From positions 36,043 to 100,042 of the IMG/VR virus record IMGVR_UViG_3300007735_000797: a stretch of DNA of 64,000 nucleotides; one strand, given 5' to 3'. Each line of letters starts with the position of its first letter. Within the stretch, counting starts at the first letter, position 1. The DNA is from a virus. This document shows, in pieces, positions 5,267 through 49,208 of this stretch. The notes beneath the pieces are model-generated. The model ran no database searches, was not told where the DNA came from, and saw only the letters and a program-made list of their open reading frames with translations. Position numbers and translations under genes: made by a program.

Positions 5267-5683
5267 ATGTCTGATATAACAAACAAAGAACAACTCAATA
5301 ATTTTCTAGAAATAACTAATCCAAAAACTTTGAAGCAAGAATCTTCTATAGTGAAGAAAAATGTAGAAGATGACTATGAATATGCTAGAGATAACATTAG
5401 AGAGATTCTAGAGAAGGGCAAAATGGCTTTAGATGGCATTCTTCAGGTTGCTCAGGATGGAGACTCCCCCAGAGCATACGAAGTCGCTACAAATATGCTC
5501 AAGGCTCTCTCAGAGATCAATAAAGATCTCATGGATGTCCATGTTAAGGTCAAGGATAGTGAAAAAACCACAATTAAGCAAACCAATAACGCTATTTTTG
5601 TGGGTTCTACCTTAGATCTTCAAGACATGATAAATAAAGAAAGAAGCTCAAAGAAAGCGATAATACAGGACAACAATGTTTGA
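5267..5683 (+). CDS. gp16: Terminase small subunit, gp16-like
   Basis: This is a 138-residue, mostly helical protein. Residues about 35-100 (DDYEYARDNIREILEKGKMALDGIL, then PRAYEVATNMLKALSEINKDL) match the central coiled-coil region of T4-type small terminases. These oligomerise, recognise DNA and stimulate the gp17 packaging motor. The ATG directly follows the gp14 stop, and the end overlaps the next gene by 8 nt. In T4 the order is 15-16-17; here the small terminase gene precedes the gp15-type gene. Confidence 0.85.
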   Translation: MSDITNKEQLNNFLEITNPKTLKQESSIVKKNVEDDYEYARDNIREILEKGKMALDGILQVAQDGDSPRAYEVATNMLKALSEINKDLMDVHVKVKDSEKTTIKQTNNAIFVGSTLDLQDMINKERSSKKAIIQDNNV

Positions 5684-8600
5684 TTCATTTTATAACGATT
5701 GCATTAAAAAGAACACGATAGCATTTGCTTCGTTATTTAACAACATCTATGTGAATAGAGAGGACACAGAGGAATCTAAAAAAATAAAAGTACCTCTAGT
5801 ATATGGCGGTAAGGAAAAGTATGTAAGTCGCCTTCAAAATCCGTCTAGTATTTCTGAAAAAGATAAGCTTCAAATAACTCTTCCCATGATGAGTTTTGAT
5901 ATGTCTAATCTGCAATACGATACGCAGAGACATAGAAACAAACTTGAATTCAACAAGCTTTTTTATCAAGAAGAAGGTGAGACTAAAGCCAAAATTAAAA
6001 TAGGCGAATATCCTTGCTTGATGCAATTTAATCTTGCAATTTACACTCGTAATATTGAAGAAAATTTTCAAATTATTGAGCAAATTGCACCCTATTTCAC
6101 GCCTGAATATATTCTTACTCTAGATTTTGATAAGACTTTGACTAGAGGTATTGATATTCCGATTAATCTAGTTGCATCAAAGATCGGAAATGACTATGAA
6201 GGTGGATTTGGCAATCGTAGAGCTGTAGTAAGTACCTTACAATTTGTAATGCGTACCTATTTGTTTGGTCCTGAGCGAGAAGCAACGCCAATTCTTACAA
6301 CTGATTTTAATCTTAATACCCAAGACAGCTTTTTACAATTTATTACAGATGTTCAAGTCAATGATGACTTATATCTTAACAATCAATCTATTACAGTTAC
6401 TTGGAGGCAGGGAGGTATTTTCCCCAGAAATCCAACTATCGTAATTACAAATCTTACAAACTACACCCAAGAAATAGTCTACGATCCAGAAACATTTGAC
6501 GTTGGCGATGGAACTAATAGTGTTACATTTCCTATACCAGCTTCTGCTCCTTTGCTACAACAGTTATATGTAAGAGTATTTTTGGGCACAGTATCAGATA
6601 ATTCGCCAGCATTTGAAATTAGATCAGCTGCTGGAAATATTTCCTTGTTACGGTTGGCTAATTTTTCTGGGACAACTTTTAATGATTTGATGTCATCCAA
6701 CCACTATTTCTTTACTCAAAGTGGTGTGACACAATTTCCAAGAGGCAACAATCTTGTCTTGGCTTATAATTATGGCTCATATAGCGATCTTAACATTAAA
6801 ACGCCCGGATTACTTGAATATTATCGTGCATTTGGCTTAACATTTAGAGCAAATACAATTGACAATCCACAAATTCCATTTGGTAGCGTTATACACAACG
6901 GCATGTGGGCTGGTATAAGTTATGATCAGAACAGAGTTTTGCCTTGTTTAACAATTTACATGAGACCCGGAGCCAATGTAAATTTATATGCAAACCAAGG
7001 TGATGGGGTGTTCGGCACAACACAAGGATCATTAGCAAATAGAAGAACAAGTGAGGATATGTTCCAAGCAACATATGGTTCTCAATCTTATTATATTAAT
7101 GGATTTTGGGGATGGAATGGAACTACAAGTACTATAAGTATTGGATCATATCCAACAGCTGGCATTACAATAGAGAGTGGTTTTAGTGGATATATTTTTG
7201 ACAAAAATAATCAAAATAGATATCCCGACACCGGAAAATATTCAACTGGTGTAACTCATTCTCAAGCAGGCCCATCAATAAGAACATTATTTGATCCAAC
7301 ATTTACTCAAAAGTTATATCCAAATCGTGGGGCAACAGGTCTAAGAGCTTGGCAAATTACTGCCTTTGGTAGTAATAATCCAGCTGATTTATTTTTTGAT
7401 TCAAATGTAATTTCTGGTTCGACTCTACCGATTTTTACTGCCAATCCCAATTTGTCCGGTTCTGATTTTAATTATCTTGATAACAATGATAAGATGAGAT
7501 TTGGAACGTATATGGACTGTTATAGAATAGCCCATAATGGAAACACATATTTGATTCCATCTCCATTTACTGCAAATCTTGTTACAGATATGCTTGGGTT
7601 TACTGCATATAAATCGACTGGATTTACAGGCAGAGAAGAATTTGCTGGTAAGTTTGGAACAACCTATGTGGGAGGATGGAATAAATTATTTGATTTTGTT
7701 TATGCTGGAAAAAATATAAATGGTGTTACGTTTACCCCACCCACTCCATGCGTGGATATTATTTTCAATGATCATGAACTTAGATGGGGACTGGGTTTGG
7801 GTGCTGATGCCTTGATGATATGGAGATTCATGCTTTTGGTTGATGGGTTGACAACTGCTTGGATCAATAGAGTCAAACAAGATGAATTCTGGCCAAATCT
7901 TCAGGCCAAATATGCAGAATATCCCGGCCTGTCTTTTGACAGAATCTTTGATAATATGAAAAATTCATTTATTCAGTTTACATCAGGACCTTTATCGAGA
8001 AAAGGTCTTCATGGAGGAATTCAGTTTTCTACTGATGCATTGCCATTGAATGAATTTTATGACAATGAGGTTAGAAAATATTGGTATGGACTTCAGGAAA
8101 CAAGCGAAAGAAGAAGTCCGGGATGCAAATTTGCTCCAGTTCATGTAAACAGAATTCCTAAATTAAAATCAGCTGCTCGTTTTAATGATGTAACAATTCA
8201 GAGCTTTTCTCAAGGAGTAACATTACCATACGAATTAATATATCATTATCCTTATGGTTATCCTTATACTTTCTCAAATTATCAGGGAAGATATAGAAGA
8301 ACAGGTTATGGCCCTACACCATCTAATCCAATAGCATTACAAGGTGTAACAAATATAGTCATAAATCTAAATCCAACGGTACAACAAGTAAATATATCAT
8401 CTGATAAGCTTGTTCCTTGGTTTATTGAGGACTCCGTTGGACAAACTGGTACAGCTTTTAATGTAGGTATTTCATATAATCAAACATATTTTGAAACAAA
8501 CCAATTACCTACTACATTGGGGAACGGTACTTTTGTATCTTTCTTTGGTAAATATCAAGAACCTTCACTCTGGCCTACGGCGGGAAGATCTTTATCAGAA

Positions 8601-9746
8601 AAATATGAACCATTTTTTGCAATAAAACACGAATCAAAAGAAATTCGTGGCGTAATTGAAGAAAATATGAGTCATGGGGTTTCTGGAATATTCATCTATA
8701 ATAATATTTTATTTAATAGAGTAACATATCATGTTCCACATGGATATGAAAACAGTTGGTTTATGGATAGTTTACCTTCAGTTGCAAATAATTTTGCTAG
8801 AGGATTTACTTATAATGATCCTGCAATATTTTCAAAAACAGATTTTAGTGGGGTTGATCAAAGACAAAATCCAAATTACCAACCGATAAATTTTTATCAT
8901 TCTTATAACGAAAATATATTCATATCAAAATTATTAACACCGCTTCCACTTAATATTTTAAATCAAGCTGTAATTTTCCAAGGACCTATAACAAATGAAA
9001 ATGATTCTAGTGCTGGGTATTACGGAATTCACCCTAAATCTTGGAACAATTTTAAATACAATGATGAGATTTTATTAAATCATATTTTATGGGATATAGA
9101 AGTTGCTACCCATGGAAGAACATATGAATATCTTTCTTCATCTGATGATATTTCAATGGAAGAAGCTTTAAGATATGAGGTTGGAGGATTTAATATCTCT
9201 AAATTGAATCCGGCTTTAGTTAGCAAAGTTAGATTGTTGGGTGTTACTGGGTCTGATCAAAATTTAATCTTACACAGAATTACTCTACCAATTCCATATA
9301 TTTTAACAACTGATTATGCAAAACCAGAACAGGGTTCATATTACGATAATTGGTATAATAATCATTTTGCTCAAAATGTTTTAGCCACAAGTGTCGATCC
9401 TTCCACTGGAACAACCCTTGATAACATTAATCTTATCACGACTGGAAATAGAGATTTAGACTTCTATACTAAGTCTGTTGTAACAGAATCAAACGGTTCT
9501 CACTCATGGAGTACACTTAGAACTGATAATAACATCAGACGTTTCAGTGTTGATGTTTTTGCTGGGACTCAATTAGTTGGAAACTTAGTACCAAGCAAAT
9601 ACTATCCAATGGGTGTTTGGTTGGTTACTGATGAAGTATCAATATTACCAGACGGAACCACGTTTAATAATTACAACTTAACTTTCCAATATCGTGATGC
9701 TGGTCCAATGGTTGATGGAATTACTACTGCACCTTATAGAACATGA
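5676..9746 (+). CDS. Giant gp15-type tail terminator fusion protein
   Basis: This is a 1,356-residue protein. Residues 1 to about 200 match T4 gp15, the proximal tail terminator that caps the sheath and binds the neck: MFDSFYNDCIKKNT, KKIKVPLVYGGKEKYV, NLAIYTRNIEENFQIIEQ, IAPYFTPEYI and a YEGGFGNRRAVV segment. T4 gp15 has 272 residues, so more than 1,100 residues are extra. Residues about 210-330 look like a beta-sandwich (ITVTWRQGG to YVRVFLGTVSDNSPAFEI). The remainder is aromatic and Gly/Asn-rich and I do not recognise it. No frameshift or internal stop is seen. The gene overlaps gp16 at the start and gp17 by 4 nt at the end. I infer a decorated neck or collar, possibly whiskers or a host-binding domain. 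gp15 identity is firm for the N-terminus only. Confidence 0.75.
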   Translation: MFDSFYNDCIKKNTIAFASLFNNIYVNREDTEESKKIKVPLVYGGKEKYVSRLQNPSSISEKDKLQITLPMMSFDMSNLQYDTQRHRNKLEFNKLFYQEEGETKAKIKIGEYPCLMQFNLAIYTRNIEENFQIIEQIAPYFTPEYILTLDFDKTLTRGIDIPINLVASKIGNDYEGGFGNRRAVVSTLQFVMRTYLFGPEREATPILTTDFNLNTQDSFLQFITDVQVNDDLYLNNQSITVTWRQGGIFPRNPTIVITNLTNYTQEIVYDPETFDVGDGTNSVTFPIPASAPLLQQLYVRVFLGTVSDNSPAFEIRSAAGNISLLRLANFSGTTFNDLMSSNHYFFTQSGVTQFPRGNNLVLAYNYGSYSDLNIKTPGLLEYYRAFGLTFRANTIDNPQIPFGSVIHNGMWAGISYDQNRVLPCLTIYMRPGANVNLYANQGDGVFGTTQGSLANRRTSEDMFQATYGSQSYYINGFWGWNGTTSTISIGSYPTAGITIESGFSGYIFDKNNQNRYPDTGKYSTGVTHSQAGPSIRTLFDPTFTQKLYPNRGATGLRAWQITAFGSNNPADLFFDSNVISGSTLPIFTANPNLSGSDFNYLDNNDKMRFGTYMDCYRIAHNGNTYLIPSPFTANLVTDMLGFTAYKSTGFTGREEFAGKFGTTYVGGWNKLFDFVYAGKNINGVTFTPPTPCVDIIFNDHELRWGLGLGADALMIWRFMLLVDGLTTAWINRVKQDEFWPNLQAKYAEYPGLSFDRIFDNMKNSFIQFTSGPLSRKGLHGGIQFSTDALPLNEFYDNEVRKYWYGLQETSERRSPGCKFAPVHVNRIPKLKSAARFNDVTIQSFSQGVTLPYELIYHYPYGYPYTFSNYQGRYRRTGYGPTPSNPIALQGVTNIVINLNPTVQQVNISSDKLVPWFIEDSVGQTGTAFNVGISYNQTYFETNQLPTTLGNGTFVSFFGKYQEPSLWPTAGRSLSEKYEPFFAIKHESKEIRGVIEENMSHGVSGIFIYNNILFNRVTYHVPHGYENSWFMDSLPSVANNFARGFTYNDPAIFSKTDFSGVDQRQNPNYQPINFYHSYNENIFISKLLTPLPLNILNQAVIFQGPITNENDSSAGYYGIHPKSWNNFKYNDEILLNHILWDIEVATHGRTYEYLSSSDDISMEEALRYEVGGFNISKLNPALVSKVRLLGVTGSDQNLILHRITLPIPYILTTDYAKPEQGSYYDNWYNNHFAQNVLATSVDPSTGTTLDNINLITTGNRDLDFYTKSVVTESNGSHSWSTLRTDNNIRRFSVDVFAGTQLVGNLVPSKYYPMGVWLVTDEVSILPDGTTFNNYNLTFQYRDAGPMVDGITTAPYRT

Positions 9747-11377
9747 GTAAAAAACATAAAGGTTATTTAGGTAATTCAAACCTCAAAGAGGCTGGAATCC
9801 ATATCGATTATACCCCTGAACAAGTTCAGGAGTATATTAAATGTGCAAAAGATCCAATTTATTTCATCAAAAACTATATTAAAATCGTTTCACTTGATAA
9901 GGGTTTAGTACCTTTTGATCTTTATGATTATCAGGAAGATATTGTTCAAAAAATGCACGATAACAGATTTATCATCGCAAAGCTTCCTCGTCAGTCAGGT
10001 AAATCTACCACAATGGTATCATACATTTTACATTATATTCTGTTTAATCAGAGTATGAATGTGGCTATTCTGGCAAATAAAGGCTCAACTGCTAGAGAAA
10101 TTCTCAGTAGACTCCAATTAGCATATGAGTATCTTCCAAAGTGGTTGCAGCAAGGCGTAGTAGAATGGAATAAAGGATCGTTAAAATTAGAAAACGGATC
10201 TAAAATTATCGCATCCACTACCTCTGCCTCAGCAATTCGTGGTGGATCGTTTAACATGATCTTTTTAGACGAATTTGCTCACGTTCCAAATAATGTTGCT
10301 GAAGAATTCTTTAGTTCAGTCTTCCCAACTGTAACTTCAGGCCAAACAACCAAAGTATTAATGGTCAGTACTCCAAATGGTATGAATATGTTCTACCATT
10401 TCTGGAAGAACGCTATTAAGAAGGACGGAGAGCCGGGTAAGAACGAGTATGTGCCCATTGAAGTAAACTGGAGGCAGATACCCCTTTATCCCGGAGGACC
10501 GATGAGAGGGGCTGAATGGCGGCAGCAAATGATCGATCAGACTAGCGAGATGCAGTTTGAAAGTGAATTTGAATGTTCTTTCTTAGGTTCATCAAACACT
10601 CTTATTTCGACATATAAACTCAATACGCTAGTTTACAACCAGCCATTTGAGCGCAGACCCGGTGGCCTTAGCATTTACAAACCGCCCCATGAAGACGGTA
10701 TTTACTTCTGTGTTGTGGATACATCTAGAGGTCAGGGGCACGATTATAGTGCTTTTGTGATTATAGATGGAAACACAAAGCCATTTGAGGTGGTAGCTGT
10801 TTATAGAAATAATGTAATTTCTCCTTTCGATTTTCCTATCGAAGTTTACAACGCTTGTACAGAATATGGTAATGCCCATTGTTTAGTTGAAATTAATGAT
10901 GTTGGATCTCAGGTAACAGAAATTTTACACAGAGATTATGAATACGAAAACCTAATTTCAACCCAATATATGGGTCGAGCTGGTCAAAAAATCTCTTTAG
11001 GATTCGGTAGAGGTCAAAAACAATTTGGTGTTAGAACTAGCACAGCACTTAAAAAGATCGGGTGTGCTGCTCTTAAAAATTTAATTGAATGTGATAAATT
11101 GGTATTTTCAGATCAGGACATGGTTTCTGAGCTTTATACCTTTATCTCAAAGGCAAACTCATACCAAGCTGATGATGGCTACAACGATGACTTAGTCATG
11201 TGTTTAGTTTTATTTGGATGGCTAACAAGACAGGTTTACTTCGAAGATTTGCTGGATTTAAAGAACAAGAAAATAATAAATACAGAGGAACAACAAGAAA
11301 ATCATATGTTCGTTGCAGATATGGATGAGAGGGAAGATATGAAATTTGGTGGCGACTTATGGTTTGAGGTAAAATAA
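9743..11377 (+). CDS. gp17: Terminase large subunit, gp17-like
   Basis: This 544-residue packaging motor has a Walker A-type loop LPRQSGKSTT (residues 81-90) and a Walker B with catalytic Glu in MIFLDEFAH (D176/E177). A coupling motif follows in MVSTPNG (about 208-213). The C-terminal RNase H-like nuclease domain starts near residue 320 with VVDTSRGQGHDYSAF (D326) and has further acidic residues at LVEINDV and YNDDLV. The enzyme pumps DNA into the prohead through the portal and cuts it at headful. It overlaps the gp15-type gene by 4 nt (ATGA). The length is close to marine T4-like homologs (about 540-560). Confidence 0.95.
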   Translation: MSKKHKGYLGNSNLKEAGIHIDYTPEQVQEYIKCAKDPIYFIKNYIKIVSLDKGLVPFDLYDYQEDIVQKMHDNRFIIAKLPRQSGKSTTMVSYILHYILFNQSMNVAILANKGSTAREILSRLQLAYEYLPKWLQQGVVEWNKGSLKLENGSKIIASTTSASAIRGGSFNMIFLDEFAHVPNNVAEEFFSSVFPTVTSGQTTKVLMVSTPNGMNMFYHFWKNAIKKDGEPGKNEYVPIEVNWRQIPLYPGGPMRGAEWRQQMIDQTSEMQFESEFECSFLGSSNTLISTYKLNTLVYNQPFERRPGGLSIYKPPHEDGIYFCVVDTSRGQGHDYSAFVIIDGNTKPFEVVAVYRNNVISPFDFPIEVYNACTEYGNAHCLVEINDVGSQVTEILHRDYEYENLISTQYMGRAGQKISLGFGRGQKQFGVRTSTALKKIGCAALKNLIECDKLVFSDQDMVSELYTFISKANSYQADDGYNDDLVMCLVLFGWLTRQVYFEDLLDLKNKKIINTEEQQENHMFVADMDEREDMKFGGDLWFEVK

Positions 11378-14300
11378 ATGGCTGAATTAACACACTCACA
11401 TAACATTAGCGGAACTCTTATAGGCCTTACACCCGGAAGTGCTCCTTTAACCGTTGGATTAACCTTTTCTGTTGATGGTGTGTCATTCTCCTCTGTAAAT
11501 TTTGATCTTCGCATTGATGTAGATACTTTTGATTTAAGTGTTCCTTATACTTCTATTGATACTTTTAGAGAATTAAATGGAAGTTCAGAAGTTCTAATTG
11601 CAAATAATTCAAATGGACTTATTGTTAGTAACACTGGAACTACATGGAACCATTTTATTGGAATTACATTATATTCCCCGCAACAAAATATTTTTAATGC
11701 CGGATTAGCAAATCAAATGCTAGCTGGTGATTTACATTATCGAACAAGAGCAAATAATTTTTCTTTAAAATATGGAGCGTTTGGTCAAACAGGAAGTGGC
11801 CAAATAGCAGAAGTCGCATCATCAACAAGAGGCGAAACACTTTCATTTAGACCATTTAATATTGTTTCGGCTACAAATGGAGTTGCAGGATCCACTCTCG
11901 GATTAACTTTACAATCTGCTAATATTCAAAGATATTATGTTGGTATTGGTACTGGTGCAACATTTTTTGGTATTGTTTCATTACTAGGATGCACCAATGG
12001 TATTAATTTAAATTCTTCTAATTTAACATCTACACAAATTTCAGAAATAAATGCTGATTACTTAGATCCTAATATTTCTGGTACTGATTCAAAATTCAAT
12101 ACACTCAGAAGAATTATTGATAATTCTGGTACAACAATATTCAATACTTCTTATACAGAATTTGTAGTGCCAAAACATATTCCGACTGGAAGTTATTATT
12201 TAATGCCAATCCCAAATTCATTTTTTGGACTTCCGGCATTTAGCAATGACGAATCCTTTACAGCTTCGGGACAAAATATTAATTTATCACAAACAAATAT
12301 TAATATTACAAATAATATATCTTCTGGGTTGACTGGAGTTTATAGTTTATCATCTGGTGTAACGCATTTTACAACGGCAATATCAACAAGACTTCCAATT
12401 GTATCACAAGCCTTTTCTAATGTAGATTTTGCTGATAAAACTTTTTCGATATTTGATCCAATAACATTTAATTTAGTTACATCTCCCTATGGAATTACAA
12501 ATAATTTAACAGGAAATACGTTTCATAAGTTAGATTATGGCTTTAATAATAGAGGAACAACTAACTATGGAGGTGCTTTAACGGATAATCCTGTATCTCA
12601 TGTACCACCATTATTTGGATTTATTCCTATTGGATTAACTATTGGAAATACTCTAACTGTATTATTAGATGGTATTACATTTTACGAAAAAATTTATAAT
12701 CCATATAATGTTAATTTTAATAATACATCACTTGCACATTTTTATACAAGTGAAAGTACTATACAAAATAATAAACGTTTTATACGTTTAATAAATGAAT
12801 CTGGCGATTTAGCTGCTAAAAGAAATTTAAATCACATCAATAGAGCATTTTATAGAGTTGATTTTAATAATCATGCTAATCCTTGGGGATTTACTGGATT
12901 TACTTTTGGTCAAGGATCTACACAAAGCCAATTAAAGGTATTTTACGGTAATCCTGCAAATGGTATATCATTTATTCTACCAATAAATACAGGCTCACCA
13001 GCAGACTTTTACTCGTTAACCGGGCAAGACGTTTTTATTCCGATTCAAGGCACTGCTAGTGGATCTACATTGACCCCGGGAGCTTCTGTTGAAATACACT
13101 ATCAAAATAGACCACTTGGGTATCTAGAAAAATTAAATTTATATAATGCATCTGGTAATTTTGCTTTAGGAATTACTATTGCGGATAATAGAACCTTTAT
13201 TCCAAAAAACACAACTGAATTGGGATATATAAGAAAAAACTTTGATCAATCTAATGTTGAAACTTTTATTGTCCCAAATTTAAATAGTGTTGGATCTACT
13301 GGAACTGCAAGAATATCATTTATTAGAGGGGATGGAGTAAGTTTTGAATTTGGCTCAACTCCGATCACAACTCCATTTAGAACATTTTCACCTATACACA
13401 CGATAGGAAATATTTCTGGACTGACGTTAATCGCAACTGGGGTTACACAATCAACAAGCCCAACAAGCTTTACAAGATTTATTGCTCCTGCTGTTGATTT
13501 AATGCGAATAACTGTAAATCATGGCCTAACAAATCTTGAGTCCGGAATAATTGGAAGAAATAATATCCACAGTAGATATTATATGCAATCAAATGTTGAT
13601 AATTTTTTAACTGATGGTAGTTTCTATAGAGGTTATTTGAGTTTTATACTTGATTCTGTCGGTCCAGAAAATGTTGTAAATAATGGTATTAGTGTTACAA
13701 ATCGTACATTGCGTTCTTTTAGAGAAGCTGCTTTAGAACGTGCTAATAACATAAATGCTATAAATGGCATTTCTTTGAGTATTCCTTTGAGAAATTTTCA
13801 AGGTGTTATCACTGAAGGTTGGCCATTCGATACAATTGAAGGTAATAGTTCATTAACTCAATTGATGAACTATTTTAATGGCCCACCATTGACCGAGGCT
13901 CAATTATCAGCAGTTGCAGACACATTTAATTATCCTCAATATGATACCGGGTTTACACTTATGTTTGATCAGGGTGACAGTCCGGATGAGACTTTTAATA
14001 ACGGGGAATGGTTTCTTGCAAATCCTCAATCGTTCTTAAGATATTCCAGTGGCAGCACGTTCTTCCCATCAACTGCATTTAGTTTTGATAATACCACGAT
14101 AAGCTTTCCACACTACATTTTCTATGACTATAGAATTACTGGTGTGACTTTATCATCTACATCTTCTGTTCAATCGCAACAATCATTAACAACAACAATA
14201 ACTGTACAAGATTTACCTCACGCATCAATTTTTGATGGATTAAGACTATCAGTTCTTAATGGTACTTCTGAAGTGTTTACAAAAAATTTATTATATACAA

Positions 14301-15760
14301 CTTCTAGCAGTAATGATTATAGAATACCCGGTTATTCTGGGTTAGGTGTAACAAATTATGCTGCTTATTATACAACTACTCCAAGGGCAATAACTGGTAT
14401 TTTTGTAGGTAGTGGAGTTACGTTAGGGGGAATAACTATTAGTCCCCCAGCAACTGGTTGGCCAGCTTCTGCGACTCTTACTGTAAGAGTAAGTCCAATA
14501 TTTAAATCATTTATTAATATTACAAGTGATGTTGATGTTTTACGGACTAATTCTTATGTTAGAGATACATCATTCTCAACTGCTGCTCAACCAACAACTG
14601 GTGGGGGTGGTGGTGGATCGTCTAGTGGATCCGTAAGCGTATCAGAATCTGTTGTTACTGGTGTCGCTTTCACCTCAACCGAAAACGATTTCTATGCAGG
14701 ATTCCTCTGTGGTACTACTGCTTATAATATTATTACAAATAATAGTACTGCTTCGTATTCAGTACTAACCAGTAGCAGCACAGCCTACGCCAACGCCAAG
14801 GCTGCGTTTGATGCTGGAACTCTAACGTCAAACACTTCAACAGACATTGAAATTCATTCTTTACTTAACTATATGGATTACGGTGGAAACATAATTGTTG
14901 CCCCAACAATTGATGGATTGTTAGGAAGCAATTATGAATATGATGTAGTATTTGCTGAAGACAATAAGAGATATGGTGAATTGATGCGTATTGGTTCTGA
15001 AAAGAATCATGCAATTGTTATTGTTGGAACCTCCCTTGAAGAGGATGCAGCCTCATTTGCAGCTCCAGCATATACTAATCTCAATTCAGCAGGGCTTGTT
15101 GATGGATTGACCTATATGACAACTGCAAATAAGGGTGAATATGTGTTCTCAGTGCTAGGATACAAGAATAGAACCCGTTTCTATGGTTCCGGAACTGATA
15201 CTGTTCGCCTTTATCTGTCCTCTGATGTTGCAGGCGCATATGCTCGTTCGTATGTAGAGAATAAATACCACTTATCAAGCTCTGGTTCGATTAGAGGCGG
15301 AATCAAAACTTATTCAAATATTACTCCAACTATTGTAGATCGTGATCTCTCTGGCTATTACACCAGAGGTATCAACACAATCTACATTCCAAGCGGTACA
15401 AACAGAGCTGCTATTTGGGGAGATGCCACTGGTATTACTACAGGAAACGAAGTATATAGAAAGTCGGCTTCAATCTCCAAGAACACTAGCACAATTAAGA
15501 GAGAATTCAAGAAGATCTTTGAAGACTTCCAATTTGAACAAAATAATGCTGGTACAAGAGCACAATTCGTTTCAAGAGCAACTACTGTTCTTGATAAGTT
15601 GCAATCTGTTGGTGGCCTTGCTTCTTACACGTTAATTTGCAATGAAACAAACAATACCCCAACTGTAATTGCACAGAAGAGATTGGTTGTTGACTTGACA
15701 ATAGTACCGAATAATTCAATCGAATCTATAGTCTTGAATTTTGTTCTTAATCAAATCTAA
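11378..15760 (+). CDS. Tail sheath protein with giant N-terminal extension
   Basis: This is a 1,460-residue protein with a clear ribosome-binding site (GAGGT) before the ATG. Residues about 1087-1460 form a tail-sheath core: FYAGFLCGTTAYNII, IEIHSLLNYMDYGGNI, KRYGELMRIG, YVFSVLGYKNRTRF, FKKIFEDFQFEQNNAGTRAQF and the terminal YTLICNETNNTP..QKRLVVDLTIVPN. This core is collinear with the whole of the next gene (377 residues). The first 1,074 residues are Ser/Thr/Asn/Gly-rich beta-like sequence with no family I recognise. They are joined by a flexible linker of six Gly then SSSGS (residues 1075-1085). T4 gp18 has 659 residues, so this is far longer. I infer that the extension projects from the tail surface. 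No frameshift is visible across the junction. Confidence 0.8.
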   Translation: MAELTHSHNISGTLIGLTPGSAPLTVGLTFSVDGVSFSSVNFDLRIDVDTFDLSVPYTSIDTFRELNGSSEVLIANNSNGLIVSNTGTTWNHFIGITLYSPQQNIFNAGLANQMLAGDLHYRTRANNFSLKYGAFGQTGSGQIAEVASSTRGETLSFRPFNIVSATNGVAGSTLGLTLQSANIQRYYVGIGTGATFFGIVSLLGCTNGINLNSSNLTSTQISEINADYLDPNISGTDSKFNTLRRIIDNSGTTIFNTSYTEFVVPKHIPTGSYYLMPIPNSFFGLPAFSNDESFTASGQNINLSQTNINITNNISSGLTGVYSLSSGVTHFTTAISTRLPIVSQAFSNVDFADKTFSIFDPITFNLVTSPYGITNNLTGNTFHKLDYGFNNRGTTNYGGALTDNPVSHVPPLFGFIPIGLTIGNTLTVLLDGITFYEKIYNPYNVNFNNTSLAHFYTSESTIQNNKRFIRLINESGDLAAKRNLNHINRAFYRVDFNNHANPWGFTGFTFGQGSTQSQLKVFYGNPANGISFILPINTGSPADFYSLTGQDVFIPIQGTASGSTLTPGASVEIHYQNRPLGYLEKLNLYNASGNFALGITIADNRTFIPKNTTELGYIRKNFDQSNVETFIVPNLNSVGSTGTARISFIRGDGVSFEFGSTPITTPFRTFSPIHTIGNISGLTLIATGVTQSTSPTSFTRFIAPAVDLMRITVNHGLTNLESGIIGRNNIHSRYYMQSNVDNFLTDGSFYRGYLSFILDSVGPENVVNNGISVTNRTLRSFREAALERANNINAINGISLSIPLRNFQGVITEGWPFDTIEGNSSLTQLMNYFNGPPLTEAQLSAVADTFNYPQYDTGFTLMFDQGDSPDETFNNGEWFLANPQSFLRYSSGSTFFPSTAFSFDNTTISFPHYIFYDYRITGVTLSSTSSVQSQQSLTTTITVQDLPHASIFDGLRLSVLNGTSEVFTKNLLYTTSSSNDYRIPGYSGLGVTNYAAYYTTTPRAITGIFVGSGVTLGGITISPPATGWPASATLTVRVSPIFKSFINITSDVDVLRTNSYVRDTSFSTAAQPTTGGGGGGSSSGSVSVSESVVTGVAFTSTENDFYAGFLCGTTAYNIITNNSTASYSVLTSSSTAYANAKAAFDAGTLTSNTSTDIEIHSLLNYMDYGGNIIVAPTIDGLLGSNYEYDVVFAEDNKRYGELMRIGSEKNHAIVIVGTSLEEDAASFAAPAYTNLNSAGLVDGLTYMTTANKGEYVFSVLGYKNRTRFYGSGTDTVRLYLSSDVAGAYARSYVENKYHLSSSGSIRGGIKTYSNITPTIVDRDLSGYYTRGINTIYIPSGTNRAAIWGDATGITTGNEVYRKSASISKNTSTIKREFKKIFEDFQFEQNNAGTRAQFVSRATTVLDKLQSVGGLASYTLICNETNNTPTVIAQKRLVVDLTIVPNNSIESIVLNFVLNQI

Positions 15761-15770: not shown

Positions 15771-16904
15771 ATGCCGATTACCACAACCACACAATCAAAC
15801 ACATTTAACATCACCCCAGTATCTGCTACAGATCACTATACTGGGTTTTTGTGTTCCACATCGACATATAATTTATTAGGAACAACTGCTGATTCATTTA
15901 CGAATCTTGAAACTATTTCAGACTCTATTTCTACATTAGCGGGAAGAACAAGCTATACCAGTATTACCACAAATAGTCTAGTTGACAGAGAAATCCATTC
16001 AATATTTAATTGCATGGAATATGGTGGTAAAATGGTTATTTCTGGGACTACTGCTGGACTAGCCTTATCGTCAGCTAAAATTTCAGAAGTTATAGCCGAG
16101 GATACCTCTAGATACAGCGACGTAATTAGTGTAGCCAAAGCTAGACTGAATTGCAATGCAATTATTGGTTCTGACAGAGATCAGAGTGGGGACTACACCA
16201 CTCCTGATCAAGCATCAATTATATCCTCAGTATCAACTCAATTGGGGTCTACTGGCACAACAGCAATTTCTTATCTCGCAGCCACAATTATTGGTTATAA
16301 GGAAAGGCCAAGATTCTACACAGGTAGTTCATCCTCTACAAGCGCAATTACAATTTTCCTTGTGTCTGATGCTGCTGGAGCAAATGCTAGAGCGTCAGCA
16401 CAATCAAAACCATATTTAACCTCTGCTGGTGTTTATAGAGGAGAACTTTTAAATTATACAAATGTTACCCCTAAGCTCTCGTTTACATCATCAACAACAC
16501 TAGCCTCAAGAGGAATTAATTATTATAATTATCTCCAATCAAAGGGTAAATATTATCTTTGGGGCGATGAAACAGGATTTAGAGATAGCACAAGTGCTAA
16601 AAGTTCTTATGGTTTCTCCAAAGCATTCCTTTATATTAACCGCGAAGTAACTTCCATATTGGATGATTATGTCTTTGAATTTAATGATGCTACCACTAGG
16701 TCAGCAATCAAATCAAAGATGCAGAATATACTTGATCCGATGATTTCAAGCGGTTCTTTGGTAAGTTATACTTTGATTTGCGACGAAACTAATAATCCAC
16801 AAACAGTAATCAATCAGAGACAGCTTAAAGTAGATCTAACAATAGTACCAAATCTACCAGTTAAGAGCATTACTTTAAGCTTTAGCATATCTCTGTTATC
16901 ATGA
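15771..16904 (+). CDS. gp18: Tail sheath protein, compact gp18-like core
   Basis: This 377-residue protein is the compact version of the sheath fold. Its segments HYTGFLCSTSTYNLL, REIHSIFNCMEYGGKMV, TSRYSDVISVAKARL, YLAATIIGYKERPRFY and the terminal YTLICDETNNPQTVINQRQL plus LKVDLTIVPN align one-to-one with the end of the preceding gene. It appears to hold the contractile core without the surface domains of T4 gp18 (659 residues). No ribosome-binding site precedes the ATG; a late-promoter-like AATAAATA ends 4 nt upstream. It overlaps the third sheath-like gene by 4 nt. It may be the main sheath subunit, since it is the least modified of the three. Confidence 0.85.
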   Translation: MPITTTTQSNTFNITPVSATDHYTGFLCSTSTYNLLGTTADSFTNLETISDSISTLAGRTSYTSITTNSLVDREIHSIFNCMEYGGKMVISGTTAGLALSSAKISEVIAEDTSRYSDVISVAKARLNCNAIIGSDRDQSGDYTTPDQASIISSVSTQLGSTGTTAISYLAATIIGYKERPRFYTGSSSSTSAITIFLVSDAAGANARASAQSKPYLTSAGVYRGELLNYTNVTPKLSFTSSTTLASRGINYYNYLQSKGKYYLWGDETGFRDSTSAKSSYGFSKAFLYINREVTSILDDYVFEFNDATTRSAIKSKMQNILDPMISSGSLVSYTLICDETNNPQTVINQRQLKVDLTIVPNLPVKSITLSFSISLLS

Positions 16905-18313
16905 ACATAGTTAACTACGGACAAACTACAGTACCAAGCGATTTTAAAATTCTCGCTTTTGTATCTCCATTAACGCAAAGTGTTTTGTCCGGAATAACTA
17001 CTTCAAGTCTTGGGTCTGATCAATTAACATATGTAGAGTCGTTAGAAGATTTTGTAGATACTTTATTTGGTTATACTGCTATAACTTTTCAAGCTGGATC
17101 AGGAGCAACTGCTGAGAAAATAACGGATGTGGAGTTACATGGCATAATGACGATGCTTGAATATGGAGCATCTGTATATGTTATGAATACTACTGGTTTA
17201 ACAGAATCAGGTGCATATACAACAAAAAATATTCAAAGCGTTATTAACTCGACAGGTGCAGGGTGCATTGTTAACAATGTATTTGATGGATTGACTGGTT
17301 CTGGGTTTACTGGAATACAAGATACTCCAATAATAATTCAAAATACAGATTTTGAACAAAGATTATTAAATTATTTTATCACAGAAGTTAATGATCCCGG
17401 AAATACAGCTGGAACCCCCTTTACATATAACGATCAGCTGGGCGAAATATATGCCAATTTTCAAGATGACATTCAGCCATCTGATACATTTACAGAATTA
17501 TTTCCTTCATTAGGTAAGTTTGCTTATGATACATTTCCATCGGCAGTTTATGGAACTTCAGAATATAATAATTTTATCGTATCCAACGGAAAATTAATCG
17601 ATCAAAATATTATAGAGCTTTTGGGTATTAAGATAAGAAATAGATGTATCAATCCAGAGACAAACCCAGAATCTACAAGTGAACTTTGGACTAAAATTCC
17701 GGTTCCGATGGTTTATGATCTAGCTGGTCAGTTTTCAAGGCTTAATTTAGCCGGAACTCCATGGAGCAGCACATCAAATTTCTTGGTAGGTCCATTGCTT
17801 AATATTGTTCAAGACGATGGTGAATATGTTTTGCCGTTTTCGGATAGCAATTCAGTGGCTGAGTTTAAAAATACCATCACCGGACTTATCAATAATAGAA
17901 TAAATTATGCAACTTTCTATAGTTTTGACGGAATTTATGGTTGCTATTTCTTAAGTGATCTGACTTGCGAATCTCAAACTGATAATTCGGCTCCATTTAC
18001 GCTGGCTCAAAGCGAAAAAAGCGTTTATTTTGTAAACATTACAAAGTATATTAAAACTAAAATTTCATCAATTTGTGAAAATTATGTGTTTGAACTAAAC
18101 AATGAGATAACTCGTTTACAGTTAACATCTGAAATATTAACCTTCATGAATGGATTGCTGTCTGACGGAGCTATTAATAACTTTAATATTGTTGCGGATG
18201 ATACAAATAACACATTTGAAGATCGTATAAATAGAAGGTTGAGGGTAGATGTATCCTATACAACTAATCCAACAAATGATTTTGTGGAGCAATCAATAAT
18301 TATCATACCTTAA
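16901..18313 (+). CDS. Third tail sheath-like paralog
   Basis: This is a 470-residue, more divergent sheath relative that starts on an ATGA overlap with the 377-residue sheath gene. Shared landmarks are FKILAFVSPLTQSVL near the N-terminus, TDVELHGIMTMLEYGASVYV (about residues 77-96), and a C-terminus in sheath order: IKTKISSICENYVFELNNEI, FNIVADDTNNTFEDRINRRL and RVDVSYTTNP. The middle holds about 100 residues that have no counterpart in the two neighbours. It could be a minor sheath subunit for one end of the tail, or a sheath-derived collar protein. Sheath ancestry is well supported; a contractile role is inferred. Confidence 0.75.
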   Translation: MNIVNYGQTTVPSDFKILAFVSPLTQSVLSGITTSSLGSDQLTYVESLEDFVDTLFGYTAITFQAGSGATAEKITDVELHGIMTMLEYGASVYVMNTTGLTESGAYTTKNIQSVINSTGAGCIVNNVFDGLTGSGFTGIQDTPIIIQNTDFEQRLLNYFITEVNDPGNTAGTPFTYNDQLGEIYANFQDDIQPSDTFTELFPSLGKFAYDTFPSAVYGTSEYNNFIVSNGKLIDQNIIELLGIKIRNRCINPETNPESTSELWTKIPVPMVYDLAGQFSRLNLAGTPWSSTSNFLVGPLLNIVQDDGEYVLPFSDSNSVAEFKNTITGLINNRINYATFYSFDGIYGCYFLSDLTCESQTDNSAPFTLAQSEKSVYFVNITKYIKTKISSICENYVFELNNEITRLQLTSEILTFMNGLLSDGAINNFNIVADDTNNTFEDRINRRLRVDVSYTTNPTNDFVEQSIIIIP

Positions 18314-18340
18314 AATACATAGATAATAGGGTAGAAAACG

Positions 18341-18874
18341 ATGAGCAACGCAAATTCACTAAGTTATTTTAAACAAAAATTCAACGGTGGTACTCGCCAA
18401 AATCGATTTGAGGTTGAGGGACAATGGCCGAATATTTCGGAAAATCCCAAAACATGCTTTCATATTGTTTCTGCAAGTATGCCACAGTCAGATGTTGGCA
18501 TAATTCAAATTCCTTACAGAGGAAGAGTTTTAAATATAGCTGGAGATAGAGAATATGAAGCTTGGAACTTAGTGATTTATGATGACACAGGTACTAATTC
18601 TTTATGGAAAGCATTTACAAGTTGGTCTAACATAATTAATAAAATTTCTGGAAATACCATAAATCCTCAAAATGTAAATTTTAGAAATGTAAAAACTAAT
18701 TGGAAAGTAAGACAACTTAATACAACTAACAATGGAACTATTCGTGAACTTGAGTTGTTGGGTTGTTGGCCAGCTTCTGTAGGAGCTTTAAATTTCAATG
18801 CTTCAAATGTTAATCCTGTTGTTTTTAATGTAACTATGAATTACGATCAATTTAGGATAACAAAATACTCATGA
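18341..18874 (+). CDS. gp19: Tail tube protein, gp19-like (copy 1)
   Basis: This 177-residue protein follows the gp19 pattern: an N-terminal FKQKFNGGTRQNRFEVEGQWP, a central FHIVSASMPQSDVGIIQIPYRGR and LNIAGDREYEAWNLVIYDDTG, and a C-terminal ELELLGCWPASVGALNF. gp19 hexamers stack to form the tail tube inside the sheath. A ribosome-binding site (AGGGTAG) lies before the ATG. Length is near the 163 residues of T4 gp19. The next gene, overlapping by 4 nt, is a paralog with the same layout. Confidence 0.9.
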   Translation: MSNANSLSYFKQKFNGGTRQNRFEVEGQWPNISENPKTCFHIVSASMPQSDVGIIQIPYRGRVLNIAGDREYEAWNLVIYDDTGTNSLWKAFTSWSNIINKISGNTINPQNVNFRNVKTNWKVRQLNTTNNGTIRELELLGCWPASVGALNFNASNVNPVVFNVTMNYDQFRITKYS

Positions 18875-19446
18875 GCTGCGATAGCAAAATTTCAACTTTC
18901 AGAGATGCATTCGCATCATTCCCAAGAGGAAACAGATATTCCATTTCAGGTCAAATTCCCAATTCAAATAATGGATGGGGTAATGATAATACTGGTGGAT
19001 TTCATATTCATGCTTTGGCATTGAATGTTCCTCCAGCAAATCTTACAACTCTTCGATACAATTATAGAGGTAGAACCCTCAAAAATCCCGGAGATAGACT
19101 ATTTCCATTTTGGAATGTCACTATTTTGGACGATACAGGGACTGATACCGTGTGGGAAGCGTTCCACAAATGGAGTAACAGTATCAATGATCATGATTCA
19201 AATTTAAGAACTACCTCCGCTTCAAGCTATGATTCTTATAAGCAGAATGGATGGATAGTTAAGCAATTAGGTCTCAACGGAGATACGATTAAAAGCGTAA
19301 CTCTTGACGGTTGCTTTCCTTACATTGTTGGACCAATTGAGCTTGATATGAATCAAAAAAATACCGTTTGTCAATTTAGCATGGTAATAGCATACGATAG
19401 CGTGGTTGATGTGTTTACAAAAGACGGAACAATTAATATTAATTAA
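18871..19446 (+). CDS. gp19: Tail tube protein, gp19-like (copy 2)
   Basis: This 191-residue protein is a diverged duplicate of the previous gene. Matching landmarks are FRDAFASFPRGNRYSISGQIP, TTLRYNYRGRTLKNPGDRLF, FWNVTILDDTGTDTVWEAFHKWS and VTLDGCFPYIVGPIELDM. It starts at an ATGA overlap, so both copies are likely made together. Two tube subunits could give a hetero-hexameric tube or different tube sections. Alternatively one copy could be a tube cap or initiator. The fold call is firm; the division of labour is unknown. Confidence 0.85.
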   Translation: MSCDSKISTFRDAFASFPRGNRYSISGQIPNSNNGWGNDNTGGFHIHALALNVPPANLTTLRYNYRGRTLKNPGDRLFPFWNVTILDDTGTDTVWEAFHKWSNSINDHDSNLRTTSASSYDSYKQNGWIVKQLGLNGDTIKSVTLDGCFPYIVGPIELDMNQKNTVCQFSMVIAYDSVVDVFTKDGTININ

Positions 19447-36007: not shown

Positions 36008-36762
36008 TGGAAACCGTATCTATAGTTTTAAATTCATATCGAAGAACCAGATGGTTTATGGAACAATACCAAGCGATCAAAAATCAATCTGTTCCTATAA
36101 ATGAAATCTATGTGTGGCAAAATAAATCTGATTCCGAGCCAATAGACGCATCATATAAAAACGATGTAATATTTGCAGACTGCAATCAAAATTTAGGTGT
36201 TTGGGCAAGATTTGCATTAGCTTTAAATTGTAGATCAGATTACATTGCAATTTTTGACGATGACACAATTCCCGGATCAAAATGGATAGAGAATTGCTTG
36301 AACACACACAAAACTCATCCCGGATTGCTTGGTACTGTTGGTGTTATATTTGGTGACAAGTATTATACTTGGAACAAAGTGGAGCGTCTAGGTTGGTGTA
36401 ACTCAAACGAAACAGTGAAACAAGTTGATATAGTAGGTCATTGTTGGTTTTTTCATAGAGATCTTCTTTCTGTTTTTTGGAGAGAACTTCCGAGCAAAAA
36501 TCAAATACCAATTGTTGGCGAGGATATTCATTTTGCTAAAATGATACAAAAATATACTAATCAAGGGGTGTATGTTCCCCCCCATCCAACAAATGACAAG
36601 GAAATGTGGGGTAGTATAAAGGGAGAATCTTATGGACATAGTCAAGAGGCTATATCCATGAATTTGTATCAAGTTGGAAATATGAAACTTGCTGGTGGGC
36701 AGATGATGGCTATGGAACTTTCAAAAGCCGTTGATAATGGATTTAAATTACTAAGAGCATAA
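36007..36762 (+). CDS. Glycosyltransferase, GT2-type (GT-A fold)
   Basis: This 251-residue protein has a GT-A pattern: VSIVLNSYRRTRWFMEQYQA at the start, a DNA-sized spacer, and DYIAIFDDDTIPGSKWIEN (about 78-96), where DDD is the metal and nucleotide-sugar site. WFFHRDLLSVFWRELPSKN and GEDIHFAKMIQKY (about 174-187) correspond to the acceptor side; the ED pair may be the catalytic base region. It is located between a GT32-like gene and a WecB-like epimerase gene. Confidence 0.8.
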   Translation: METVSIVLNSYRRTRWFMEQYQAIKNQSVPINEIYVWQNKSDSEPIDASYKNDVIFADCNQNLGVWARFALALNCRSDYIAIFDDDTIPGSKWIENCLNTHKTHPGLLGTVGVIFGDKYYTWNKVERLGWCNSNETVKQVDIVGHCWFFHRDLLSVFWRELPSKNQIPIVGEDIHFAKMIQKYTNQGVYVPPHPTNDKEMWGSIKGESYGHSQEAISMNLYQVGNMKLAGGQMMAMELSKAVDNGFKLLRA

Positions 36763-46249: not shown

Positions 46250-47479
46250 ATGAACCCTACAATAACATTATGCATGATCGTTAAAAATGAATCCGCAGTG
46301 ATTCTCCAGTGCCTTGAATCGATGTACAAGTATGTTGATCGATACGACATCACGGATACTGGTTCTACTGACGGAACCCAAGACATTATCCGCAAGTTCT
46401 TTGCAGAAAAGGGAATCCCCGGTGAGATCTACCAGTCAGATTGGAAGGGATTCGGTGACCATGCTGGCCGCATTGGTTCTAGAACCGAGGCTTTCCGAAA
46501 CTGCGACGGCAAGGCTGACTATGTTTGGGTAATTGATGCAGATGATTATCTTGAAGGCGATTTCAAGTATCCCCCAAACATGAATGCTGCGGCCTATGCT
46601 CTTACATTTAAGAGAGATGATTTCACTTGGTGGAGAACTCAGATCTTCAAGAATGAACTTCTTTGGAGATATGTTGGTGTTCTTCATGAATATCCAGATA
46701 CTGATAAGAAGCCATATGCTGTTGAAAAGATTCATGGCAATTATCATGTCACAGCCAGAACTGCTGGATTCGAAAGAAACGCAAACAAAACACTTGTTGA
46801 AAAGTATTCCAAGGATGCAGAAACCCTTGTCAAGGCTCTGGAAGAAGATCCAACGAATGTTCGATATATGTTCTATCTTGGACAAAGCTATTTTGATTCG
46901 CAGCAATGGGGAAAGGCTGAAGATGCTTACCTAAAGCGTTCCAAGATGGGTGATTGGGGTGAAGAAGTATTCTTTTCTCTTTACCGAGCGGCAATCTGCA
47001 AGATTCTACAAGCAAAGGCATGGCCAGAAATTTATGATGCCTTCCTTAACGCTTACGAATCACGCCCAACAAGAGCAGAACCATTATATCAACTCGCTAG
47101 GCTAAATCGCCTACATAATAGACCAAGAACAGGATTTATCTATGCACAAATGGCAGCACAAATTCCATACCCTCAAGAAGACCTTCTTTTCGTTGATCAC
47201 GGTATTTACAAGTGGGGTATTTTGGACGAAATTTCGTCAACTGCTTGGTATGCGGGTAAGCCCCACATCGGCTTTGAAGCCAGCCGCGTGCTGCTGCAAG
47301 AGAAAAGGTTGCCGCAAGACCAAACAGACAGAGTCACGAAGAACTTCTTAACTTATAAGGATCTGCTAGAAAAACTCCACACTCAGCAGCAGATGAATGT
47401 GGAAGCAGAAAAGGAGAAGGCAAAGCAACAAAAGAAACAGCAGAAAAAGATGAAAAGGATGCAAAAGTTAAGAAGGTGA
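46250..47479 (+). CDS. Glycosyltransferase GT2 with TPR-like repeats
   Basis: This 409-residue protein has a GT2 catalytic domain: [20 protein letters not shown] (5-24), [13 protein letters not shown] (35-47) and [13 protein letters not shown] (91-103) with D-x-D-D. A helical-repeat region follows (about 190-340: [40 protein letters not shown]), like TPR. The C-terminus is a highly basic, Gln/Lys-rich coil. It has its own promoter and visibly higher G+C than the island upstream, so it may have a separate origin. Similar proteins are common in large marine phages. Confidence 0.85.
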
Positions 47480-47480
47480 C

Positions 47481-49208
47481 ATGAAATTCTCAGATATCTT
47501 TAAAAAAGAACAAAAAATAAATCTTGCTGGCCTAACCAAGCAAGATGTTCTTTTATTAAAAGAAGATATTTCAGAATTTAAGACTGGTACTAAGTTTACT
47601 GTCAATCCCAAAAACAAGAGTGATAAGTCCGTAGAAATAGGCGATGGTCTTACCGAATTGCATCTAGTTGATGAAAAAGGTAAAACTGTCCTATTTTCGG
47701 GAAATTACTCAAAAATTGCGTCATTATTCACAATTTTAGAGGAAAAGACCCCCGAACCACAAATCATAGTTGTAGAAAAAACTATTGTCAATGAGATAAA
47801 AAAGAAACAAGTAATAGAAGGCAAAGAAGGTCCGATAGGGCCACAAGGCCCAAGAGGTGATATTGGAGCCAGAGGGGAACTAGGACCTGTTGGGGCTAAG
47901 GGAGAGCGCGGAGAACAGGGTGAGGTGGGCGAACAGGGTCCACAGGGCATTGCTGGCCCAATCGGGCCTAAAGGTCCAGTAGGACCGCAGGGGCCAAAGG
48001 GAGACAAGGGAGATAAAGGCGATCAGGGAGTTCCCGGAGAACGAGGTCCTATAGGCCCAGAAGGTCCAAAGGGAGATCGCGGAGAAGCTGGAGAGCCGGG
48101 ACTTGATGGATTGCAGGGAGAACGAGGGCTAATTGGTCCGCAGGGTCCAAAGGGAGATATGGGAGAACCGGGTCTTCCCGGACCAAGAGGCCTAATGGGT
48201 CCACAAGGACCAAAGGGAGAGCGCGGAGAACCCGGAGAACAGGGTCCAGAAGGTCCTCAAGGTCCAATAGGACAAGACGGCCTTCCCGGTGAAAAGGGCG
48301 ACAAGGGCGATCCCGGTGTCGTTTCTGCCAGTTTTCCATTAATCTACGACAAAAAATCGGCAAATCTAAGTTTTGACACTAAATTTTTGGACGATAAGAT
48401 CACCAAGATAGCTGTAGATCCACTTTTGGCTAGCGGTGGCAGTGGTCTGGGTGTCAAAGAAAACGGATCAATACTTGTCAAAACGGGTGTTGATTATTTG
48501 GATTTTAGAGGTTCTATTGATCTTACCAGACAAGGTAGAACTGTTATCGTTACAGGAACATCTTCAGGATCTGGTACTGGCATAACTGGCCCTACAGGTC
48601 CAACTGGTCCAGCGGGTGCAACTGGTGCTGACGGATCGATTGGTCCTGTGGGTCCGACTGGTGTTACGGGAGTTACTGGTGCTGATGGTTCAATTGGCCC
48701 TATTGGTCCAACAGGTGCTACAGGCGTTACAGGAGCAGACGGTTCAATCGGCCCTATTGGTCCAACAGGTGCAACTGGAGTTACTGGTCCTATTGGACCT
48801 ACTGGAGCTACAGGACCATCTGGTATAACCAATATTAATGGTATTACTTTATCCCCTGTAACTATAAGAGATGGAACTGGAATTTTAATAGCAAATAATA
48901 TTCCAAATAGAGAAATAAGTATTGAAAACGCTTGGGGAGAATTAGCAGATTCGAATTCAACCCTTGAACCGTATATTTTAGTTAGTTTAAATGGATTAAT
49001 AGGTGCTCCATCATTATTTGCCGGAACAGGAATAACTCTCTCTGTCGGAACTCAAGGTATTACAATTTCATCCACTTTACCCAAGTTCACGGAAGGGACA
49101 ACTGCCCCAGCAAATCCAATTGCAGGAGATAGGTGGTACAATACAGACGATGGTGTGATATACACATCAGTTACTAAATCAGGATCACAAATTTGGATAG
49201 TTGGATGA
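47481..49208 (+). CDS. Collagen-like fibre protein
   Basis: This 575-residue protein has two collagen-like blocks of uninterrupted Gly-X-Y. Block 1 (residues 114-281, 56 triplets) is charged with many GPK, GDK, GER and GEP triplets. Block 2 (367-450, 28 triplets) is Thr-rich (GPT, GAT, GVT). The N-terminal 110 residues are non-repetitive and may anchor it. A short beta-like domain between the blocks and a C-terminal fibre-type repeat ([20 protein letters not shown]) complete the chain. It probably forms a trimeric virion fibre. It lies directly after the glycosyltransferases, and Thr in GXT repeats can be glycosylated in some bacterial proteins. Confidence 0.85.
48615..48776. repeat. 54-bp tandem repeat, three copies, in collagen-like gene
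   Basis: Three consecutive 54-nt units (48615-48668, 48669-48722, 48723-48776) encode an 18-residue unit of the type [18 protein letters not shown]. The second and third units are identical at the protein level; the first differs at three residues. Such repeats can change copy number and so alter fibre length. Confidence 0.85.

Follow-up and report, generated by a model that had tools for sequence, protein, structure and literature searches.

Why does a contractile phage place more than a thousand residues in front of one of its tail sheath subunits? The question is raised by sheath A, a gene in a 64,000-nucleotide stretch (positions 36,043 to 100,042; hereafter the window) of the 100,042-base uncultured virus record IMGVR_UViG_3300007735_000797. 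The recognised terminase, portal, capsid, gp15, tube, and sheath genes indicate a T4-like myophage, and the closest isolate terminases are those of marine Synechococcus phages (~55–57% identity). Sheath A begins right behind the terminase stop codon, and its open reading frame (ORF) is organised as follows.

11378-15760, + strand: sheath A ORF, 1,460 amino acids (aa), comprising arm, hinge, and sheath core
11378..14599, + strand: arm, residues 1–1074, an apparently exchangeable cassette of no recognised family
14126..14584, + strand: putative Ig-like beta-sandwich stalk, residues ~917–1069 (two AlphaFold models, fold matches)
14600..14632, + strand: hinge GGGGGGSSSGS, residues 1075–1085 (sequence; predicted local distance difference test score, pLDDT, <50 across the hinge)
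14633..15757, + strand: minimal sheath core, residues 1086–1460 (PF17482, PHROG_23, solved-sheath fold matches)

A first-pass annotation, made from the sequence alone, had described an extension at 11378-14635, linked by GGGGGGSSSGS to the core of the first sheath gene. Linker and core are both present at that place. Of three sheath genes in tandem, sheath A comes first and is the sole one with an arm; the arm does lie within the proposed span, which runs on through the hinge to the first residue of the core. Among relatives the hinge contains 6–8 glycines and ends in SSSGS or SAGGS.

Sequence comparison indicates that the arm is a cassette swapped among close relatives whose remaining tail is near-identical. 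Relatives with terminases 97–99% identical to that of the window carry arms 39–47% identical (segment identities are relative to the window). In contig L028, the terminase large subunit (gp17) is 99% identical and the sheath core 97%, and the thirds of the arm are 40, 41, and 56% identical. The DNA identity between the window and L028 is ~96% in the terminase gene, ~40–65% at 11.4–14.1 kb, then 70–85%, and 97% from position 14,663; identity drops at the gene start and returns at the hinge. The more distant L033 (gp17 91%, core 91%) has arm segments of 44, 49, and 65%. L031 combines a gp15 extension of 93–94% and a gp17 of 98% with an arm of 44–45%, and L029 combines values of 95% and 98% with an arm start of 38%. 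Synonymous divergence (dS; Nei-Gojobori, own script) between L028 and the window is 1.09–1.37 in the arm, 0.22 in the core, and 0.27 in gp17, and this ~five-fold jump argues for replacement of the arm rather than fast protein change alone. The reverse pattern is seen between the window and L004 (arm dS 0.40–0.64 vs core 0.83) and between L005 and L006 (0.03 in arm residues 1–700 vs 0.18 in the core).

Four arm types were distinguished: type (i) in the window, L004, L008, L005, and L006 (72–92% identical), type (ii) in L028, L029, and L021 (72–73%, partial rows), type (iii) in L031, and type (iv) in L033, the last being 53–59% identical to the window type. L029 and L021 were recovered from a single sample and could represent the same phage. 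Window-type arms occur on both terminase (backbone) clades. The ratio of nonsynonymous to synonymous divergence (dN/dS) in the arm is 0.10–0.65 in 17 of 18 segment comparisons, and the lone value above 1 (1.59, L005-L006 residues 1–350) comes from few changes; the arm is therefore a maintained protein. Sheath A thus presents an exchangeable variable part on a constant anchor, which is a trait of receptor-binding proteins, and the exchange suggests that the arm is a contact module exposed at the tail shaft.

The fusion of arm and core is real. The arm-core junction is continuous in all 13 contigs where it is visible (complete in the window, L001–L007, L028, and L033; partial in L031, L021, and L024), and the complete copies are single frames of 1,433–1,460 aa. 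These contigs are not independent and represent ~8 lineages: L001 is almost identical to the window, L002–L004 form one lineage, and L006–L007 form another. Because the same open frame recurs in several contig lineages with different arms, neither chance nor a misassembly of two genes explains it, and we put the probability of such an artefact at practically nil. The first-pass annotation had named misassembly as one objection to a large arm carried on a sheath subunit by a flexible hinge; the arm survives that objection. An armless core translated from an internal start was also considered and rejected. The window has no in-frame ATG, GTG, or TTG from the linker to +70 codons, so no armless core arises there from an internal start; the same scan found single GTGs at differing places in L004, L006, L031, and L021.

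Residues 1086–1460 are a complete minimal contractile-sheath core. The whole of sheath A scores 27.1 bits against PF17482, just over the cut-off of 26.9, and the hinge and core alone score 29.5 bits; the core also matches PHROG_23 at 1e-22 and T4 gp18 at 1.7e-12. The model of residues 900–1460 matches solved sheaths with Z up to 28.4 over 318 residues (root-mean-square deviation 3.5), with a best Foldseek E of 8.9e-14; its pLDDT is mostly 60–95 in the core, except for one poor loop, and <50 in the hinge. The gene context, adjoining terminase, tube, and portal genes, is a T4-like arrangement. The addition lies entirely N-terminal of this core, which past the hinge is uninterrupted both in fold and in alignment with the armless sheath B of the window and the sheath of a sister clade. 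Counted back from a shared FLC motif, the start methionine of the latter two sheaths falls at sheath A residues 1082–1084, and residue 5 of a Photorhabdus virulence cassette (PVC) sheath aligns at residue 1079 (Z 26.0). The segment after the hinge in which the N-terminal handshake strand of the core would lie is present and can be aligned with PVC sheaths from their residue 5 onward, at pLDDT <50. Since the hinge aligns with the start methionine of armless sheaths, the arm extends the core from its natural N-terminus.

The arm itself is unrecognised, as had been noted at first pass. Residues 1–1074 yielded insignificant matches only in Pfam and PHROGs, the arm profile had no match at E≤5 among PDB sequences, and tblastn found no match in 50,697 phage records. 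None of the 10 arms scanned matched PHROGs better than E 0.1, so homology to described tail-fibre or spike families went undetected in that scan. Blastp revealed no internal repeats. The 127 pattern matches in bacterial and archaeal genomes included no relative of the arm, given that short exact patterns catch close relatives only; scans for distant arms returned only the window clade, whether the query was one of four different arms, an alignment of arms, or an alignment of the hinge region. The whole-arm AlphaFold model has a mean pLDDT of 35 and is confident only at residues ~917–1069, where pLDDT is mostly 70–80 over the strands in two models. These residues are predicted to form a probable Ig-like stalk. 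Its fold matches are common Ig-like sandwiches (best Z 9.8), including dextranases, glucanotransferases, and complement proteins, and function is therefore not read from them. The structure prediction that had been recommended for residues 1–1074 thus gave a model for ~917–1069 and low confidence for the rest, and the earlier description of the arm as beta-like applies to the same residues, nearly all else having pLDDT <50. The best-conserved part of the arm is that nearest the hinge. A Ser/Thr/Asn-rich composition, also claimed at first pass, is not distinctive (31.6% in the arm vs 29.3% in the core).

From the comparison of related loci, the arm looks like a late addition. Among 74 complete sheath ORFs at loci fetched by terminase similarity, five measure 1,433–1,460 aa, all from the window clade, and the other 69 are ≤708 aa (armless B and C paralogs counted in). 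In the nearest sister clade (terminase 67–68%), all 6 complete copies of the first sheath are armless and 389 aa long; a second sheath comes next and, on contigs that extend far enough, two tube genes. Of the 19 related records searched, 15 are armless, many of them fragments; none of these 15 matched the arm profile or held a standalone arm gene, which the first-pass annotation had proposed looking for. The remaining four records belong to the window clade and have the arm on the sheath. Loss of the arm in all other relatives would be a less likely reading of the same sequences.

Sheath A is a contractile sheath by its core, and it is set apart from described multi-domain sheaths by the site of the addition and from tail fibres by its anchor. 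As far as the excerpts of the cited papers go, it resembles type 2 and 3 sheaths (PMC9230969, Evseev et al. 2022) in combining a conserved core with large added domains, beta-rich or Ig-like, that were proposed to act in stability or adhesion. In those large sheaths, the additional domains split the core and lie between an N-terminal and a C-terminal part of it, whereas the whole addition in sheath A precedes a complete type-1-sized core via a Gly hinge. Size alone is not new, since sheaths of 1,283 aa (the longest in the first part of the table in PMC9230969) and 1,492 aa (S-CBWM1) exist. The S-CBWM1 sheath, with a C-terminal sheath match at 1267–1484, differs in opening with an apparently ordinary sheath N-terminus, as judged by eye from its sequence. 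The two-component sheath of Pseudomonas phage PaBG (PMC7412058) likewise consists of diverged paralogs (38% identical, compared with ~35% between the sheath A core and sheath B); unlike PaBG, the window has three paralogs, one with an arm, and the excerpted PaBG account mentions no such arm. The tail-hair phages CBB and Y3 have shaft appendages that possibly serve in host contact, and the hair genes of CBB are described as unknown (PMC5259590, PMC13282480). Sheath A shares with them the prospect of appendages along a contractile shaft, in its case known from genes alone, and by our estimate the ~119 nm CBB hairs (PMC5259590) are probably beyond the reach of a 1,074-residue chain of compact domains. 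The PVC and antifeeding prophage (AFP) injection systems are similar in having a minimal sheath core and three sheath paralogs (PMC9230969 table), and their sheaths are among the best fold matches. Unlike them, the window has portal, terminase, and capsid genes and belongs to a T4-like phage. PVC/AFP systems also have more than one tube protein, and to our knowledge their sheaths have no arm. Like receptor-binding proteins and tail fibres, sheath A joins an outer part that diverges fast and is exchanged to an anchor that stays constant, but the arm has no detectable homology to tail-fibre families and its anchor is a sheath gene rather than the baseplate. We found no earlier description of an N-terminal hinge-linked sheath arm in literature judged by titles and abstract openings, with few subscription papers covered.

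How such an arm might be used depends on the surrounding tail genes, which are listed below.

15771..16904, + strand: sheath B, 377 aa, armless, ~35% identical to the sheath A core
16901..18313, + strand: sheath C, 470 aa, divergent, armless (Pfam, PHROGs, tree)
18341..18874, + strand: tail tube paralog A (PHROG_45, 4.7e-32)
18871..19446, + strand: tail tube paralog B (PHROG_45, 3.5e-25; 34% identical to tube A)
5676..9746, + strand: gp15-like sheath terminator/stabiliser (PF16724, 1.4e-51 on residues 5–225)
9743..11377, + strand: terminase large subunit gp17, the conserved backbone marker directly upstream of sheath A

The three sheath paralogs each score above the PF17482 cut-off. A tree of the sheath proteins places A, B, and C in one group each; the A+B join has support of only 86/85, and several long branches meet. 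Branch lengths are similar for the A and B cores, and C is divergent. Together with sheath A, 15771-19446 forms a tandem of three sheaths and two tubes in a T4-like phage, recalling PVC/AFP injection systems. The gp15 protein is itself composed of a conserved part (residues 1–225) and a variable extension of ~1,130 aa (residues ~226–1356), which in L028 is 57–66% identical beside a core of 97%. The gp15 of relatives is shorter, and its extension differs in length (532 aa in Pelagibacter phage Mosig, 666 aa in L084, and 714 aa in L050). Homology between the arm and the gp15 extension was considered and rejected (hhalign probability 0.2%; weak blastp pairs, E≥0.04, taken as composition). As the gp15 extensions of L029 and L031 are 93–95% identical to that of the window and their arms are not, each varies independently of the other. 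That a second tail-shaft protein beside sheath A has a large variable appendage supports a decorated shaft, though by analogy only.

We consider the chances about even that the sheath A arm serves in adhesion or recognition, as a swappable module tethered to some of the sheath subunits and displayed on the surface. The core would probably build into the sheath with armless B (and C), and the arm would project from the shaft at some positions only. As a contact module that is exposed and replaceable, it would there most likely adhere reversibly to host surface structures or recognise them. Recombination bounded by the conserved start of the gene and the conserved region around the hinge would renew it. 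Virion incorporation, exposure, sheath positions, stoichiometry, and binding of the arm are all points that we infer. The first-pass annotation had placed the arm on each or some sheath subunits; with two sheath paralogs lacking it, this can mean only some sheath genes. Its suggestion that the arm lies outside and may bind host surfaces or glycans gains indirect support from cassette exchange and faster divergence. More tentatively, the shaft could carry a second recognition system, in which one subunit type of a mixed three-paralog sheath bears hinge-tethered arms that pass from the inner mesh out through the wall and are swapped between gene start and hinge, contraction repositions them, the shaft shares in host contact, and gp15 supplies a second, unrelated variable appendage of like logic. 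In contractile phages, recognising the host is a task attributed to the fibres and spikes of the baseplate. If the adhesion proposal is true, a swappable sheath arm makes the tail shaft a second recognition surface, offers a possible genetic basis for unexplained "hairy tails", and implies that the inner N-terminal sheath strand can bear a cargo of >110 kDa, which is relevant to contractile nanotube engineering.

Several observations weigh against an adhesive arm. The main problem is topological: in phiKp24, Milano, and 7-7-1, the N-terminal extension of the sheath joins neighbouring subunits in an inner handshake mesh, as excerpted (PMC9700779, PMC10811340, PMC12796354), and the arm must therefore leave between subunits to be displayed outside. 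The extended hinge and its Ser/Thr-rich neighbours could span an estimated ~5–6 nm, and either the arm reaches the surface by that route or sheath A occurs only in a ring that leaves its N-terminus free. Fusions to a truncated RaK2 sheath still made tubes, with the cargo designed for the inside of the empty tube according to the excerpted report (PMC8618960). In addition, the arm outside ~917–1069 has no usable model and hence shows no binding fold; the Ig-like fold of the stalk is commonplace and names no ligand; and the Ser/Thr/Asn content of the arm is near that of the core. Change is not constant either, as the window, L004, L005, and others have one arm type in common, and arm dN/dS is mostly well under 1. 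Exchange and fast divergence would also fit phage-phage competition, shielding, or neutral drift.

The topological problem would be eased if sheath A were a minor sheath forming a single ring, for example near the baseplate, with six fibre-like arms and sheath B as the main polymer, because bottom-ring sheath N-termini have no sheath partner below. In the excerpted accounts, the bottom-ring sheath N-terminus of 7-7-1 is held by baseplate wedge 1 (PMC12796354) and the tail spikes of Milano attach where the sheath meets the baseplate (PMC10811340); the presence of three sheath and two tube paralogs also favours such a collar. However, it is C and not A that diverges in the tree, and with A and B so similar in branch length nothing in the sequence marks sheath A as minor, leaving the collar rather doubtful. 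The low dN/dS is also what a non-adhesive decoration would show, namely an arm that protects or stabilises the shaft, has no specific ligand, and owes its variation to drift and recombination; extra sheath domains have been proposed to stabilise virions (PMC9230969, in excerpt). We consider this unlikely, since block exchange beside a core kept at 97% is unexpected for a purely structural shield. A role of the arm in assembly or as a chaperone, ended by cleavage at the hinge while the tail assembles or earlier, appears very improbable: a flexible hinge would make a natural cleavage place, but its variation (6–8 Gly, SSSGS or SAGGS) is unlike a specific site, and an assembly factor is unlikely to be swapped while the core stays constant.

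Other genes of the window were noted in passing. Between gp14 and gp15, a small ORF at 5267-5683 is 36% identical to the annotated HTVC008M terminase small subunit. Farther downstream, a glycosyltransferase-like gene (46250-47479, PHROG_13126) lies directly upstream of a collagen-like tail fibre gene (47481-49208, 89% in G002), which in turn precedes a gene for a mosaic tail-spike-like or structural protein (49222-51777), with 80% identity to G002 in the first 99 residues and scattered patches of 51–64%.

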